From: Cedecea davisae DSM 4568
GTDB taxonomy: Bacteria; Pseudomonadota; Gammaproteobacteria; Enterobacterales; Enterobacteriaceae
Direction: 5' to 3'
DNA length: 64,000 nt
Assembly: GCF_000412335.2 (NCBI RefSeq)
Contig: NZ_KE161030.1
Location: 3,425,407-3,489,406 of the forward strand
The notes below the pieces were generated by a model that did no database searches, was not told where the DNA came from, and saw only the letters and a program-made list of their open reading frames with translations. This document shows positions 36,318-43,204 of the stretch, in pieces. The position numbers were made by a program, and so were the translations under genes. The stretch's first letter is position 1. The number at the start of each line of letters is the position of its first letter.

Positions 36318-37703
36318 ATGCCGACACAAAATTCTCCCTCAATTTATACCGTTTCACGCCTGAATCAGACGGTGCGTCTGCTGCTGGAGCAGGAGATGGG
36401 TCAGGTCTGGATCAGCGGTGAAATTTCCAACTTCAGCCAGCCTTCTTCCGGCCACTGGTACTTCACGCTGAAAGACGATACCGCCCAGGTTCGCTGCGCG
36501 ATGTTCCGCAACAGTAACCGTAGGGTAACGTTCCGCCCGCAGCACGGGCAGCAGGTTTTAGTCCGCGCCAACATCACGCTTTACGAACCGCGCGGCGATT
36601 ACCAAATCATCGTCGAAAGCATGCAGCCTGCCGGTGAAGGGCTGTTGCAGCAGCAGTATGAGCAGCTCAAGCAGAAGCTGAGCGCCGAGGGGCTGTTCGA
36701 CCAGGCACACAAGCAGCCGCTGCCCGTTCCCGCTCGTCAGGTCGGGGTTATTACCTCTAAAACCGGCGCGGCGCTGCACGACGTGCTGCACGTATTACAG
36801 CGCCGCGATCCGTCCCTGCCGGTCATTATCTATCCAACCGCCGTTCAGGGCGCAGACGCCCCGCTGCAAATCGTGCGAGCTATTGAACTTGCTAACCTGC
36901 GTAATGAATGTGATGTGCTGATTGTCGGGCGCGGCGGCGGCTCGCTGGAAGATTTGTGGAGCTTCAACGATGAGCGTGTTGCACGAGCAATTTTCGCGAG
37001 CAAGATCCCGGTCGTTAGCGCCGTAGGGCATGAAACTGACCTCACGATCGCTGATTTTGTCGCTGATTTACGTGCGCCAACACCTTCCGCCGCGGCGGAA
37101 ATCGTCAGCCGTAATCAGCTCGAACTTCTGCGCCAAATCCAGTCCCAGCAGCAGCGCATGGAAATGGCGATGGATTATTATCTGGCGCAGCGCACTCAGC
37201 GCTTTACGCGCCTGCATCACCGCCTGCAACAGCAGCATCCTCAGCTGCGTTTAGCCCGCCAGCAAACCACGCTTGAGCGCCTGCGCCAGCGGCTCAATGT
37301 GGCAATAGACGGAAAAGTTCGCCGTGCCAACCAGCAGCAGCAGCGCCTGGCTCAGCGTCTTAATCAGCAGCAACCTCAGCCGCGCATTCATCGCGCCCAG
37401 TCTCGGTTACAGCAGCTTGAATACCGCCTGTCGCAGTTAGTAAGCGCTCAGCTCAGCCAGACAAAACAACGCTTTGGCACCGCCCTGGCGCAGCTTGAGG
37501 CGGTTAGCCCGCTGGCAACCCTGGCGCGTGGCTATAGCGTCACTACGGCCGAAGACGGCAAGCTGCTGAAGAAAACCAAACAGGTGAAGTCCGGAGACAC
37601 GCTAACCACGCGCCTGGACGACGGCTGGGTCGAGAGTCAGGTTACGGGCATCAAACCGGTGAAAGCGCCGCGTAAGCGTAAGCCAGCGGCGAAAGACGAG
37701 TAA
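36318..37703 (+). CDS. xseA: exodeoxyribonuclease VII large subunit XseA
   Basis: Large subunit of the single-strand-specific exonuclease VII, which works with several XseB subunits. The protein has 461 residues against 456 in E. coli. The N-terminal OB fold ([35 protein letters not shown]) is followed by the catalytic region with [23 protein letters not shown] and [21 protein letters not shown], then a long glutamine- and arginine-rich coiled coil (about 275-400). It is divergent from guaB and ends 4 bp from the convergent yfgJ stop. Confidence 0.98.
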
Positions 37704-37707
37704 GAAA

Positions 37708-37929
37708 TCAGAGCGCGACGGGAACAAACTCCACGCGCTTTTTAGAAATCAGCCCGTGGCCGTTCTGGCAGAAATAATCCACCGCACCACACGCTTTCAG
37801 CACCTGTAAAGGTTTATGGCAGTCCGGGCAGAGCGCCTCCAGGCGGAAATCTTTGGCGCAGGTATCACAGCGAGCGCCCCCGTCCGTTTGTTTCAGTTCG
37901 TTTTTACACGCCGGGCAATTCACCATCAT
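37708..37929 (-). CDS. yfgJ: zinc-ribbon protein YfgJ
   Basis: A 73-residue protein made of zinc-ribbon knuckles: CPACKNEL, CDTCAKDF, CPDCHKPLQVL, then CGAVDYFCQNGHGLISKKRVEFV, almost identical to E. coli YfgJ. Two start codons lie in tandem at 37929 and 37926; the second has better spacing from AGGGAAG. No known function; a metal-binding structural role is inferred. Position between xseA and the der side matches E. coli. Confidence 0.92.
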   Translation of the reverse strand: MMVNCPACKNELKQTDGGARCDTCAKDFRLEALCPDCHKPLQVLKACGAVDYFCQNGHGLISKKRVEFVPVAL

Positions 37930-38033
37930 TCTTCCCTCCCGCTAAGTCATTAATGGGAACCATTATATACCCATAGCGTTAAAATGGACTCACTCCGGCA
38001 CTGTGCAAAGGACAGGCAAATTTAGCGCATTAA

Positions 38034-38050
38034 TGCACCATTTTTGCCCA
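38034..38050 (+). promoter_or_regulatory. possible NtrC binding site
   Basis: TGCACCATTTTTGCCCA agrees with the NtrC consensus TGCACCA-WNN-TGGTGCA in its full left arm but has three mismatches in the right arm. Its centre is about 120 bp before the start expected from the sigma-54-like promoter, a normal enhancer distance. Only one half is strong, so this is tentative. Confidence 0.4.
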
Positions 38051-38134
38051 ACCTCACCTTCCGTTTACGCGCGCTTGTATCCAGCCTGGTATCCCAGACG
38101 GCGCTGCGCCTTAGCCTTCAGTTTTTTGAACCCT

Positions 38135-38151
38135 TTGGCATGGTAATTGAA
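38135..38151 (+). promoter_or_regulatory. sigma-54 promoter of the biuret operon
   Basis: TTGGCATGGTAATTGAA fits the RpoN consensus YTGGCACG-N4-TTGCW with correct -24/-12 spacing and two mismatches (C to T in the -24 element, C to A in the -12 element). Transcription would start near 38162, 25 bases before the amidase ATG, which has its own GGGAG. RpoN control suits nitrogen scavenging. Confidence 0.6.
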
Positions 38152-38186
38152 TGGCTCCCTTGTGCAGCTAACCTGGGAGCCCCCCG

Positions 38187-39635
38187 ATGTTTGATGAATT
38201 GTTGGATAAAGATGCGACCACTTTGGCGGCGTTAGTTCGCTGTGGCGAGGTTTCCGCGCGGGAATTAACCCAGGCGGCAATTAACCGGCTGGAGCAGCGG
38301 GAGCCTTATATTCAGGCATTTTGCACCGCCACGCCGGAGCTCGCCCTGGCGCAGGCTGATGCCGTCGATGCTAAACGTTCTGATGGGCAAGTATTGGGCC
38401 CGCTGGCAGGTGTGCCTCTGGCGGTTAAAGACCTGATCTCTACTGCCGGGGTACGAACAACCTCGGGTTCCGCTGCCTATAAGGATTTTATCCCGGAAGA
38501 CGACGATATCTGCGTTGAACGCCTGCTTGCCGCCGATGCCATTCTGCTGGGTAAAACCACCGCCCCCGAGTTTGGCTACAGCGGCGTTGGGCACAATCCA
38601 TTATTTCCCTCGCCCCGAAATCCCTGGGATCTGAGCAAAACGCCCGGAGGCTCCAGCGCAGGTTCAGGCGCAGCGCTCGCAGCCCGGCTCTGCCCGATAG
38701 CTTTAGGCAGCGACGGCGGAGGTTCGGTTCGCATTCCTGCCGCACACTGCGGCGTATATGGCCTGAAGGCGTCTATGGGCCGGGTACCGCTGTGGCCCGG
38801 CTGCCGCGACGAGCGCTATCCGGGAGTTTCCAGCTGGGAGTCGCTCGAGCACGTGGGGCCGATGACGCGCACGGTAAGGGACGCCGCATTGATGATGTCC
38901 GTTATCGCTGGCCCGGACATGCGTGACAGGCATTCTATCCCCAGCGCGGATGTTGACTGGCTGGCGGCGTTAGAAAAACCTCTGAGCGGTCTGCGTATCG
39001 CGTTTAGCGCCGATTTCGGCTACATCGCCGTCGACCCCGAAGTACGTCAGGTTACCACCGAGGCCGCCCGCCGTTTCGCGCGGGAATCAGGGGCAGAGCT
39101 GGACGAAGTAGACCCCGGTATCACCGATGAGGTGGCCTCTTTCGCTGCGCTGGTCGCCTTTGAAAGCGACCTCTCAGGCATGCGCAAAATGCAGGCCGAA
39201 CTGGGGCCAAAAATGTCGCCGCACCTCAGCGCCATGCTGCAACACGAATGGCGTGCAGAAACTTTTACCGACGCCAACACCACACGCAAAAAAGTCTGCA
39301 ACCAGCTTTGGCGCTTTATGCAGCGCTACGACCTGCTGTTGACGCCAACGCTGGCCGTGCCGCCTTTCCCGCTGAATATGCAAGGCCCGGAAATGATCGA
39401 TGGCCGCATGGTGAGGAGCGACCACTGGCTGTCGTTCTGTTTCCCCTTCAATTTTACCGGCCAGCCCGCCGCTTCCGTTCCCGCTGGTTTCACCGCCAGC
39501 GGATTGCCGATTGGGCTGCAAATTGTGGGTCGTCACCTGGACGACGGCCTGGTGCTCGCGGCAAGCGCCGCTTTCGAGCGCATTCAACCATGGAATCATC
39601 TCTATCCCGCCTTGCCTGGAGTTGCCCATGAATAA
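38187..39635 (+). CDS. amidase-signature hydrolase, possible allophanate or ureide hydrolase
   Basis: A 482-residue cytoplasmic amidase-signature enzyme. The Ser-cisSer-Lys triad is complete: Lys81 in AVKDL, Ser156 in TPGGSSAGSG and Ser180 in SDGGGSVRIPA, the spacing seen in AtzF and malonamidase. AtzF-type allophanate hydrolases carry an extra C-terminal domain that is missing here. Given the neighbouring biuret-hydrolase-like gene, likely jobs are hydrolysis of allophanate (the biuret product) or of a related carbamoyl amide. It is the first gene of a three-gene unit in which each start overlaps the preceding stop by 8 bp (ATGAATAA here). Confidence 0.82.
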   Translation: MFDELLDKDATTLAALVRCGEVSARELTQAAINRLEQREPYIQAFCTATPELALAQADAVDAKRSDGQVLGPLAGVPLAVKDLISTAGVRTTSGSAAYKDFIPEDDDICVERLLAADAILLGKTTAPEFGYSGVGHNPLFPSPRNPWDLSKTPGGSSAGSGAALAARLCPIALGSDGGGSVRIPAAHCGVYGLKASMGRVPLWPGCRDERYPGVSSWESLEHVGPMTRTVRDAALMMSVIAGPDMRDRHSIPSADVDWLAALEKPLSGLRIAFSADFGYIAVDPEVRQVTTEAARRFARESGAELDEVDPGITDEVASFAALVAFESDLSGMRKMQAELGPKMSPHLSAMLQHEWRAETFTDANTTRKKVCNQLWRFMQRYDLLLTPTLAVPPFPLNMQGPEMIDGRMVRSDHWLSFCFPFNFTGQPAASVPAGFTASGLPIGLQIVGRHLDDGLVLAASAAFERIQPWNHLYPALPGVAHE

Positions 39636-40938
39636 CAAGTCCACCCCTGCTCTGGAGCAGGAATTTGAACACGAGCCGGTACCGCTCAGCCATCGCCACT
39701 CCACCGGCTCCGTCTCGGCGGTATGGTTTGGCTTCCCGATGATCCTCACCAACGCGCTGTTTGGCGGCATTATCAGCTGGTCCCTCGGCTTCTGGCCCGC
39801 CATCATTGCGATTCTGCTGGGCAACCTGGTGCTGTTTGCCTACGTTGGCTCGCTAAGCTGGTTTGCCGGGCATACCGGCATGAACTTCGCCTTACAGGCA
39901 AAACGAACCTTCGGCACCAAAGGCTACATTTTGGTTTCGGGATTTCTGTCCACCGTGGTGATTGGCTGGTACGCATTCCAGACCGGCCTGACCGGAACCG
40001 TGATTAACCAGACCTTCGGCTGGAACGCCATGGCGGTGACCGCATTCGCCATCGTGCTTTACACCGGCATCACCTTCCTTGGAGTACGTGCCCTGTCGGT
40101 GCTCGGCATGATTGCCGCTCCGCTGTTCGTGGTGCTTGGGCTTGTCGCCTTATGGCTGATTAGCCAGACCCACGATTTCAGCACCATGACCCAGTGGCGC
40201 GGCAGCCCTGCCGCAGTCGGCACCATGAGCATGGGCACGGCGGTAACAATGGTTATCGCCGGTTTTGCCGACTCGGGCACGATGACGGCAGACTTCACCC
40301 GCTGGTCAAAAAACGGCAAATCAGCGGTCATTGCGGCCTTCTCTGCTTTCCCCGTGGCCAATGTCATCTCTTATCTTTTCGGCGTCGCTATCGTTGCCGT
40401 GGGGGCCGCCGTTGACCCGGCAAGCAACGGCGGCAACTTCCTGCCAATGCTGATGGGCCACGGTGAAATTCTGTCGGCCATCGCCTGCCTGTTTGTCTTT
40501 ATCAACCTCGGTTCTGTCTGTACCCACTGCCTGTACAACGGCGCGGTAGGCTACAGCCATCTGTTCCACAGCAAAATGCGCCTGTGGACGTTGATTCTGG
40601 GCGCGACCGGCGGGGCGTTAGCACTTGCGGGCGTCTGGTCATATTTCCTGGAATGGCTGAGCCTGCTGGGGGTTGTAGTTCCTCCGTTTGGCGCAGTAAT
40701 GATCGTTGATTTGATCTTTATGGCCAAAATTAGCCAAAACCGTAAAACAAGCCGCATGCGCGGTGGCGCCTTTGCGGCATGGGCTATCGGTAGCCTCTGT
40801 GCCGTGGTAGCTCACCTGCTGTTCCCGCAGTTTGGCGAAGCGGTCATTGGCCTGGTCACCGCCGCCGCCAGCTACACCCTGATAATGAAGCTAAAACGCG
40901 AAACGTCGGTCACCGTGCTGGAGGAAAAAAATGCCTGA
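39628..40938 (+). CDS. NCS1 family nucleobase/ureide permease (CodB-like)
   Basis: A 436-residue inner-membrane transporter with about 12 hydrophobic segments, of the nucleobase:cation symporter-1 family (cytosine permease CodB, allantoin and purine permeases). Family stretches are [30 protein letters not shown] at the N terminus and [22 protein letters not shown] near residue 213. The start at 39628 overlaps the amidase stop by 8 bp. Its position between two amide hydrolases suggests that it imports their substrate, possibly biuret or another small ureide, instead of cytosine. Confidence 0.87.
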
Positions 40939-41641
40939 TTACGCTATTCACTCAACGCCCTACGCCTGGCCGTTTGACGGCAGCTACAGCAGTAGCAATA
41001 CCGCGCTTATGGTCATAGATATGCAAACTGATTTCTGCGGTAAAGGGGGCTACGTCGACAGCATGGGCTACGACATCGAGCTGACTCGCGCGCCGATAAA
41101 ACCCCTGCAACGTGTGCTGGCCCGCATGCGCGAGCTGGGCTTTCCGATTATTCATACCCGAGAGGGGCATCGCCCTGACTTAAGCGACCTGCCGGAAAAT
41201 AAGCGCTGGCGCTCAAAACGGATGAACGCCGAAATAGGCGCTCAGGGCCCCTGCGGCCGCATTCTGGTTCGCGGGGAGCCGGGCTGGGAAATCATTCCCG
41301 AGCTGGCGCCGCTTCCGGGAGAAGTGATTATCGACAAACCGGGAAAAGGTTCTTTTTATGCTACCGATCTGGAGCTGATTTTGCGCAGCCGGGAAATTCG
41401 GAATCTGATCCTGACCGGTATTACAACCGACGTCTGCGTGCATACCACGCTGCGCGAAGCTAATGACCGAGGGTTTGAGTGCCTGGTGCTGACCGACTGC
41501 TGTGCAGCAACGGAGCTGAAGCACCACGAGGCGGCGTTAAGCATGATTCACATGCAGGGGGGTATTTTTGGGGCTGTGGCGAGTTCAGAGACTTTACTTG
41601 AGGGGCTTGCGGGTAAAACAACAGCGGCGCTGGCCGTTTAA
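40931..41641 (+). CDS. biuH: isochorismatase-family biuret amidohydrolase (BiuH-like)
   Basis: A 236-residue cysteine hydrolase. The triad is Asp30 (MVIDMQTDF), Lys136 ([10 protein letters not shown]) and Cys169 (TDVCVHTTL). I recall the Rhizobium leguminosarum biuret hydrolase triad as Asp36, Lys142 and Cys175 with substrate-binding Gln215; every position here is shifted by exactly six, with Gln209 in HMQGGIFG. The segments [27 protein letters not shown] and [18 protein letters not shown] also follow that enzyme, not the general family. It would convert biuret to allophanate and ammonia. Its start overlaps the permease stop by 8 bp. Confidence 0.85.
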
Positions 41642-41653
41642 CGCTTAAACCAG

Positions 41654-41680
41654 TGTGCTCCCCTTCTGGCGAGGAGCACA
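41654..41680. terminator. hairpin between biuH and der
   Basis: An 8-bp stem (tgtgctcc and ggagcaca) lies in the 57-bp gap between convergent stops. U-tracts are weak, so its strength is uncertain. Confidence 0.4.
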
Positions 41681-41698
41681 TTGGCTATCAATCAGGGC

Positions 41699-43204
41699 TT
41701 ATTTACCCTTTTTGATATGCTTAATCAGACGCTTACGCTTACGCATCTGGTTTGGCGTCAGGGTGTTACGCTTACCGGCAAACGGGTTATCCCCTTCCTT
41801 GAACTGAATGCGGATAGGCGTGCCCATCACGTCCAGCGATTTACGGAAGTAGTTCATCAGATAACGCTTGTAGGAGTCCGGCAGGTCTTTCACCTGGTTG
41901 CCGTGGATAACCACGATTGGCGGGTTATAACCCCCGGCATGCGCGTATTTGAGCTTAACGCGACGGCCACGAACCAGCGGTGGCTGATGGTCTTCCGCCG
42001 CCATGTTCATGATGCGGGTCAGCAGCGCGGTGCTTACGCGACGCGTGGAGCTGTCGTAAGCTTCACGGACGGACTCAAACAGGTTGCCAACGCCGCTGCC
42101 ATGCAGGGCGGAGATGAAGTGTACGCGGGCGAAGTCGATAAAGCCCAGACGGTAGTCCAGCGTCTCTTTCACCTGCTCGCGGACTTCGTTGCTCAGGCCG
42201 TCCCACTTGTTAACCACGATAACCAGTGAGCGCCCACTATTCAGGATAAAGCCCAGCAGCGAGAGATCCTGATCGGAAATGCCTTCGCGGGCATCAATCA
42301 CCAGCAGCACAACGTTAGCGTCTTCAATCGCCTGCAGGGTTTTGATTACCGAGAATTTTTCTACCGTGTCGGTGATTTTCCCACGCTTACGAACGCCTGC
42401 GGTATCAATCAGAACGAATTCACGCTCATCGCGCTCCATCGGAATGTAGATACTGTCGCGGGTGGTGCCCGGCATGTCGTAAACCACTACGCGTTCTTCG
42501 CCGAGAATACGGTTAGTTAGCGTTGACTTACCCACGTTAGGGCGGCCAACGATAGCGAGCTTAATCGGCAGATCCTGAGGGTTGAAGGCTTCTTCTTCCT
42601 CTTCTTCCGCAAGCTCTTCGTCTTCAGAAATGATGCCATTTTTGGCATTGAACGCCGCCCAGTAGGCTTCGTCTTCGTCAATTTCTTCCGGTTTTTCACG
42701 CGGGTCGACATCGTCCATCCACGGGACCAGAACGTGTTCCAGCAGGCTGGTCACGCCGCGGCCATGGGAGGCAGCAATCGGGTGGATTTCGCCAAGGCCG
42801 AGGGAATAGAAGTCGATCACCGCCTGGTCCGGGTCAAGACCGTCGGTCTTGTTCGCCACCAGGAAAGTCGGCTTCTGACGGGAGCGCAGGTGCTGAGCAA
42901 TGGCTTCATCCGCAGGCATCAGGCCCGCTCGAGCGTCCACCATAAACAGCACGACGTCTGCTTCTTCGATTGCCAGCAGAGACTGCTCCGCCATGCGCGT
43001 TTCAACGCCGTCTTCCGTGCCGTCGATACCGCCGGTATCGATGCAGATAAATTCACGCCCTTCCACTTCCGCACGACCATATTTGCGGTCGCGTGTCAGC
43101 CCCGGGAAATCCGCAACAAGCGCATCACGGGTACGCGTTAAGCGGTTAAACAAGGTGGATTTACCGACGTTAGGGCGCCCAACCAGCGCGACCACAGGTA
43201 CCAT
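41699..43204 (-). CDS. der: ribosome biogenesis GTPase Der (EngA)
   Basis: Essential tandem GTPase needed for 50S subunit maturation. The 501 residues hold two G domains: first [14 protein letters not shown] at residue 8, with DTGGID and NKTDG; second [14 protein letters not shown] near residue 215, with DTAGVRKRG and NKWDG; then a KH-like C-terminal domain ending in [13 protein letters not shown]. The acidic linker [14 protein letters not shown] is longer than in E. coli (490 residues). The start is the ATG at 43204 (MVPVVALVG); an upstream ATG at 43225 is unlikely. Confidence 0.98.

Follow-up and report, generated by a model that had tools for sequence, protein, structure and literature searches.

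Biuret, an impurity of urea fertiliser that is toxic to plants (PMC7700744), is the substrate of BiuH, and the roles of Asp36, Lys142, Cys175 and Gln215 have been described for the enzyme of Rhizobium leguminosarum (PMC5806882); the Rhizobium enzyme turns over biuret with a kcat/KM of 1.7e5 per M per s (PMC7948467). A member of the same family, the triuret hydrolase TrtA, carries isoleucine at the site of BiuH Val218, and this residue has been suggested to hold the key glutamine off its BiuH position (PMC7948467). Among carriers of the NCS1 family, CodB sandwiches its cytosine with Trp108 and Phe204, depends on Gln105 and Trp108 for transport and has a sodium site at Thr278/Thr279 (PMC9379551), and the bacterial members characterised before the metformin transporter MetT take nitrogen heterocycles (PMC13390362). 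The locus analysed here comes from Cedecea davisae DSM 4568, from a stretch of 64,000 nucleotides on contig NZ_KE161030.1 that we call the window, and consists of three packed genes encoding an amidase-signature enzyme (amd), an NCS1-family permease (perm) and a predicted biuret hydrolase (biuH). With somewhat better than even confidence, we regard it as an inserted nitrogen-scavenging operon for biuret, in which BiuH would act together with enzymes encoded elsewhere on the chromosome and the amidase would work on another substrate.

All three genes are read from the forward strand: amd (38187–39635) encodes 482 amino acids, perm (39628–40938) 436, and biuH (40931–41641) 236. Neighbouring genes share 8 bp each, stop codons included (39628–39635 and 40931–40938), and a ribosome site of the GGAG/GGGAG type is visible by eye upstream of every ATG. 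The frame of perm is already open at a TTG at 39511; the ATG at 39628 was taken as its start because of the ribosome site and because relatives align from that residue. All products exceed the gathering scores of their Pfam families (Amidase, 381 bits; Transp_cyt_pur, 85.6 bits with gathering at 23.5; Isochorismatase, 153 bits), and the assignments draw further on curated profiles and alignments for all three, a tree for amd and a PDB match for biuH. These reading frames and coordinates confirm the three overlapping genes reported in a preliminary description of the locus; the interpretation that it placed on them is partly supported. The source genome of 4,886,981 bases is divided into three contigs, and the one that includes the window has 4,876,800 bases. 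The closest named relative of the locus is that of Cedecea neteri (L008), with protein identities of 89, 92 and 91% for amd, perm and biuH.

The hydrolase scores 414 bits against the BiuH equivalog of NCBIfam, NF050097 (cut-off 370), and the E-value of 9e-125 shows that the match is not due to chance; the same profile gives 429 bits to Rhizobium BiuH and 248 to a TrtA-type protein encoded by the same plasmid. Its best PDB match is a biuret hydrolase (1e-108), and it is 66.5% identical to Rhizobium BiuH against 47% to the TrtA-type protein. The reference was RL_RS29165, which we equate with the BiuH characterised in Rhizobium on the strength of its residues at positions 36, 142, 145, 175 and 215 and of its agreement with the PDB constructs. 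The triad Asp30-Lys136-Cys169 and Gln209 of the Cedecea protein align with Asp36, Lys142, Cys175 and Gln215, each six positions earlier, exactly as the preliminary description had stated, and Phe41 and Lys145 are matched as well. BiuH-type letters are found at 12 of 13 compared sites, including five of the six positions by which BiuH and TrtA can be told apart (Y47, Y53, S147, D173, T200 and V218; positions from PMC7948467). The only exception is Ile212, the TrtA letter at the site of Val218. The likeness to TrtA thus extends to family, triad and this isoleucine, while TrtA letters are missing at the other five discriminating sites, and a TrtA identity was rejected on score and residues. Other family members in the genome are at most 35% identical, with no TrtA-like second copy. 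The BiuH-like identity proposed earlier is upheld by the curated profile, the PDB match and the alignment; that the protein is a BiuH, with the activity predicted from its sequence, is strongly supported, possibly with relaxed or shifted specificity.

In the pathway that we propose, biuret would be taken up by the NCS1 permease and split by BiuH into allophanate and ammonia, as its family and residues suggest, and the allophanate would drain to a urea carboxylase/allophanate hydrolase pair encoded at another locus, where the remaining ammonia would be freed. That locus (L091) encodes an allophanate hydrolase of 613 amino acids (TIGR02713, 820 bits; cut-off 511) adjoining a urea carboxylase of 1,205 amino acids (TIGR02712, 1952 bits; cut-off 1304), with a UrtA-type urea binding protein beside the pair, and no urease alpha subunit was found in the genome. 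Across 392 sampled Enterobacteriaceae genomes, allophanate hydrolase (E ≤ 1e-130) is present in 14 of the 15 that have biuH and in 113 of the 377 that do not, an association with a Fisher p of 9e-7 by genome and 6e-5 by genus (8/8 against 40/146), both ignoring relatedness. Urea carboxylase occurs in the same 14 genomes, and urease in 1 of the 15. The amidase would most likely cut a second neutral amide or ureide entering by the same permease, for example an acylurea, whose urea could join the same drain. In most relatives transcription would depend on a sigma-54 promoter like those active under nitrogen starvation (Ntr type), as its conserved motif suggests, and in Cedecea a changed -12 element may leave the control weaker or different.

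Several observations weigh against this reading. The association with urea carboxylase and allophanate hydrolase may be partly a matter of lineage. In one genome of the same genus (G267), which has the full operon, neither urea carboxylase nor allophanate hydrolase nor urease was found at the limits used; under relaxed limits only amd itself and another amidase (205 bits) came up, with no allophanate hydrolase fragment, so that its allophanate has no known sink. Outside the family, where contexts were drawn from plasmid records only (123 with an amd match, 25 of them listed and five of those examined), amd and perm stand without an adjoining biuH in Paraburkholderia FT54 and Cupriavidus KK10, and the permease may therefore serve the amidase first; in a search confined to these plasmids, FT54 has no biuH at E ≤ 1e-40 and KK10 has one about 40 kb away. 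The lack in amd of a Tyr/Arg pair typical of allophanate hydrolases, described below, is shared by AtzE and five other amidase rows and hence shows what amd is not, rather than what it is. Finally, in all five Cedecea rows (the window, L008, L108, L109 and L110, with L008 and L108 probably belonging to a single species) the sigma-54-like element keeps its -24 part and reads GA for GC at -12, matching 10/12 sites, and the right half of the NtrC-like site is weak in the window.

A different order of events would have a larger ureide or amide imported, with the amidase acting first to release biuret (or triuret) and BiuH second, tuned by Ile212. The gene order amd-perm-biuH and the amd-perm pairs without adjacent biuH would suit this scheme, as would the isoleucine, which occupies the 218 site in 19 of 22 complete operon rows, most other BiuH rows having valine. 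The valine is found in the Serratia-type rows L073, L103 and L104, and the full BiuH pattern with valine in 73 rows, these three included; the biuH relatives compared are the best 80 of 585, and row counts include repeat fetches of the same genome. A close amd (at least 63%) accompanies biuH in 12 of the 15 genomes. G064 and G087 have only a biuH of 55%, and G146, which counts against an amidase-first order, retains perm and biuH with no amd in front. The latter corresponds to P. ananatis LMG 2665 (L014), with which it is identical over the 450 bp in front of perm, and in both a sigma-54-like site (10/12, GC intact) starts 221 bp before perm. Nor do we know of any natural acyl-biuret, and we consider this order of events unlikely.

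The amidase was also seen in wider contexts. A plasmid of P. aromaticivorans without a biuH match carries amd and a 45% permease together with an aliphatic amidase, a formamidase and an alpha/beta hydrolase. The ortholog of amd in Salipiger lies with an ABC transporter, two BiuH-like proteins below the BiuH cut-off and an atzG-atzE-atzH set, a third biuH (70%) being located elsewhere on the same plasmid. In Agrobacterium, a 52% amd is found on a plasmid, preceded by an ABC transporter and followed by further catabolic genes, and the annotation of this stretch shows no biuH. Together these contexts suggest an amidase for neutral amides or ureides, often accompanied by this permease, that has been joined to biuH. 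The two BiuH-like proteins of Salipiger profundus (L125:3734-5109) lack Gln215, which is replaced by Ser and Gly, and the Tyr47/Tyr53 pair, and they perhaps represent a third ureide specificity. The 45% permease relatives in L124, L129 and L130 adjoin an annotated alpha/beta hydrolase, for which the PRK07581 model was tested and held only in L124; an aliphatic amidase is present in two of the three, and urt genes in two of the three.

The preliminary description had assigned the next step of the pathway, hydrolysis of allophanate, to the amidase itself. In this form amd would be an additional allophanate hydrolase whose pocket differs from that of AtzF, and the operon would be self-contained; in ammonia-oxidising archaea, a gatA-like amidase encoded next to biuH has been proposed to play this part (PMC12625717). 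The position of amd next to biuH agrees with it, and G267, in which the operon persists with none of the three sink enzymes recognised, is the strongest fact in its favour. amd does have the full amidase-signature triad reported earlier, Lys-Ser-Ser being aligned in 34 of 34 rows. Its curated scores are below the cut-offs, at 150 bits for AtzF (511), 250 for AtzE (426) and 438 for the best model, PRK06169 (506), and amd reaches no NCBIfam model among the best 25 of 26. The missing C-terminal domain of AtzF, the other feature noted in the preliminary description, is indeed lacking (482 amino acids against 613 in the genome's own allophanate hydrolase, the AtzF profile match covering 12–414 of 563) but is not decisive, because the amidase domain of AtzF by itself retained amidase activity (PMC3944691), a point that also speaks for the self-contained operon.

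Tyr299 and Arg307 reportedly hold the substrate in the allophanate hydrolase of K. lactis. This pair is present in 17 of 17 AtzF rows (E ≤ 1e-60, more than 350 amino acids matched; 16 different genes, the pADP-1 gene appearing twice and Salipiger being included) and in none of the 24 amd rows, all of which have Asp at the position of the arginine (Asp328 in the window). Profile-profile alignment agrees that the amd of the window is without the pair, in a stretch that is weakly aligned and contains a 4-residue gap. The phylogeny against AtzE and AtzF that had been proposed as a check sets amd apart from both: a maximum-likelihood tree built from 34 rows gives support of 100/100 to the AtzF clade (three rows), 100/99 to that of AtzE (two rows) and 94/94 to that of amd (24 rows, two of them identical and others from shared species), the last just below the program's star limit, with long branches flagged by the program. 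The Salipiger cluster with the amd ortholog also contains a protein that does bear the Tyr/Arg pair, itself without the C-terminal domain and at 408 bits below the AtzF cut-off. Moreover, the window's genome has its true allophanate hydrolase beside urea carboxylase, as do 14 of the 15 sampled Enterobacteriaceae genomes with biuH. On profile, residue and tree evidence we rejected an identity with AtzF, with which amd has the signature triad in common, and rate the self-contained operon as improbable. AtzE (1-carboxybiuret hydrolase) is likewise an amidase-signature enzyme, the Salipiger AtzE being about 37% identical to amd, and was rejected on its score and on the position of amd outside its clade. 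No AtzG-like partner was recognised in front of amd: the longest short forward frame there (38044–38235), the only one tested, matches no Pfam family, against PF13318 matches for two known AtzG proteins. To judge from its sequence, amd does not resemble the enzyme that would be expected to act after BiuH.

The permease is closest among named transporter models to the CodB-type cytosine permease, with 195 bits against a cut-off of 326. Comparison with the CodB structure (7QOA) places both within the NCS1 family and shows that the aromatic sandwich is kept, Trp108 corresponding to Trp114 and Phe204 to Phe213, while Gln105 is replaced by Val111, Ser206 by Asp215, Asn280 by Cys298, Thr278 by Ser296 and the Na2 residue Thr279 by Val297. 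At 18 sites, 40 of the 41 rows linked to biuH agree in every letter, although many of these rows are repeat fetches; the remaining row, from the broken locus L128, covers six of the sites and differs at two. Three plasmid rows of 45% identity share these letters where CodB has Ser206, Thr278, Thr279, Asn280 and Asn282. On these residues a cytosine permease was rejected, and perm is best placed in a separate NCS1 subfamily. Since it is not CodB-like at the binding site, the ureide substrate proposed in the preliminary description is plausible, and from its linkage the permease is probably a biuret carrier. That the operon instead serves pyrimidines, with a carrier for cytosine or another nucleobase and a ureidoacrylate hydrolase (RutB), is very improbable in spite of the CodB-type model and of RutB being the next-best model for the hydrolase, as RutB reaches 116 bits against a cut-off of 378, the permease stays below the cut-off of the cytosine permease model, and all 41 biuH-linked rows have Val in place of CodB Gln105, a residue that cytosine transport requires (PMC9379551).

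A more far-reaching version of the biuret reading, which we offer tentatively and think less probable than its plain form, would see here a new NCS1 subfamily for linear ureides (biuret, acylureas) and a new class of neutral-ureide amidase, with a generalist BiuH and a reused module. Asp215 of the permease and Asp328 of the amidase, replacing polar or basic residues of the substrate sites, would fit NH2-rich, carboxylate-free substrates. Through Ile212, BiuH in most Enterobacteriaceae rows might be a biuret/triuret generalist, and the same permease-amidase module might serve other amides in Burkholderiales.

The operon lies in a segment (37923–41698) between genes that we take to be yfgJ and der. 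In a congener (G192), yfgJ and der are neighbours, their aligned ends separated by 54 bp, against 3,776 bp in the window, and no biuH is found in that genome at E ≤ 1e-80. This empty site bears out the insertion that had been proposed; biuH is present in the other four of the five sampled genomes of the genus. The flanks in C. neteri (L008) are those of the window, a presumed xseA before and der after, and they were not found around the operon in the eight other named rows examined. Operons of Pantoea and Enterobacter ludwigii adjoin other genes, and that of Serratia M24T3 adjoins presumable recA- and pncC-type genes, named from our own reading of the sequence starts. Copies of Pantoea and Duffyella in the plasmid collection are on records of 0.56–0.93 Mb, and among the 14 listed plasmid records of Pantoea, 7 name a plant or leaf source. 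At E ≤ 1e-80, biuH occurs in 15 of the 392 Enterobacteriaceae genomes and 8 of 154 genera; the operon is patchy in distribution and located at several sites. Among 20,395 E. coli records there is no near match (megablast) to 38000–41700, and in a phylum-wide sample of 398 genomes amd was found at E ≤ 1e-125 solely in the window's genome and G240. A biuH 77% identical to that of the window is carried by plasmids of 31–188 kb in Klebsiella, Enterobacter and Citrobacter, some of them clinical (records H68-H86). In Pseudomonas silvicola p1 (L128:5915-8992), amd-perm-biuH is broken by frameshifts or sequencing errors, and only pieces are annotated.

A motif scan of the region upstream of amd revealed a sigma-54-like (Ntr-type) promoter in most operon rows, newly found here. 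The -24/-12 element of the window, TGGCATGGTAATTGAA (38136–38151, forward strand), matches 10 of 12 sites, the GC of its -12 part reading GA. The spacing GG-N10-GC is intact in 15 of 20 operon rows, comprising all those outside Cedecea, where the element starts 49–73 bp before the start codon of amd, and in nine of these 15 rows TGGCACG-N4-TTGCW is matched at 11 of 12 sites. In a background of 331,056 positions, taken from both strands of the window and of eight loci, 11/12 is attained at 7 places; because six loci of this set carry such an operon site, about one place is due to chance. Matches of 10/12 are found at 29 places, or about 0.03 per 300-bp strand. A shifted GG-N10-GC at 38141, 5 bp further on, is unremarkable at 8/12 and, among the five Cedecea rows, is confined to the window; the non-enterobacterial rows L123, L124 and L126 show no comparable GG-N10-GC. 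An NtrC-like site precedes the element (38034–38050, forward strand), with an intact left half TGCACC (9/12 overall). Such sites, of 9–11 out of 12, are located 153–219 bp upstream in 18 of 20 rows, L114 and L116 being the exceptions; with 0.18 matches scoring 9 to be expected in 300 bp, it is only the conserved place that supports them. We infer Ntr-type control in the relatives and an altered form of it in Cedecea. No sigma-70-like promoter was found by consensus scan in 37700–41760.

Other elements of the region are an imperfect palindrome overlapping the NtrC-like site (38015–38048; repeat search, with a counterpart seen by eye in other rows) and a conserved GTATCC direct repeat, recognised by eye (38074–38097, CTTGTATCCAG / TGGTATCCCAG). 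The latter stands between the NtrC-like and sigma-54-like sites and is also kept upstream of perm where amd is gone, as in G146 and L014; a Nac site was rejected for it, the repeat not fitting the Nac consensus. Downstream, an inverted repeat (41650–41684) lies between the converging biuH and der and could form a hairpin of -22.7 kcal/mol (z -2.6) with no T run.

The locus belongs to a known kind, that of biuret hydrolase operons. In the open-access literature, subscription papers mostly lying outside it, we recognised no amidase-NCS1-biuH operon in Enterobacteriaceae, nor did we find the combination with an NCS1 carrier, an amidase and a sigma-54-like promoter described, and we make no claim that it is unpublished. 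The hydrolase resembles BiuH of R. leguminosarum 3841 (PDB 6AZO series) in overall identity and in its triad and substrate residues and differs from it in Ile for Val218; the partners are an NCS1 permease and an amidase here, and atzD and ABC transporter genes in Rhizobium. Should perm prove to be a biuret carrier, the NCS1 family would handle linear ureides too, for which MetT, compared by description only, provides a precedent in its linear, biuret-shaped cargo (PMC13390362). The amidase differs from AtzF in its substrate pair, its C-terminal end and its clade. Similar in arrangement are the archaeal clusters, as described, in which biuH has a gatA-like amidase, itself uncharacterised, for a neighbour and occasionally also a permease of the codB type (PMC12625717); these amidases, too, were set beside amd by description only. 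Enterobacteriaceae offer a tractable place for finding the substrate of the amidase, and the result bears on the archaeal clusters: if our reading is correct, an amidase encoded beside biuH need not be an allophanate hydrolase.

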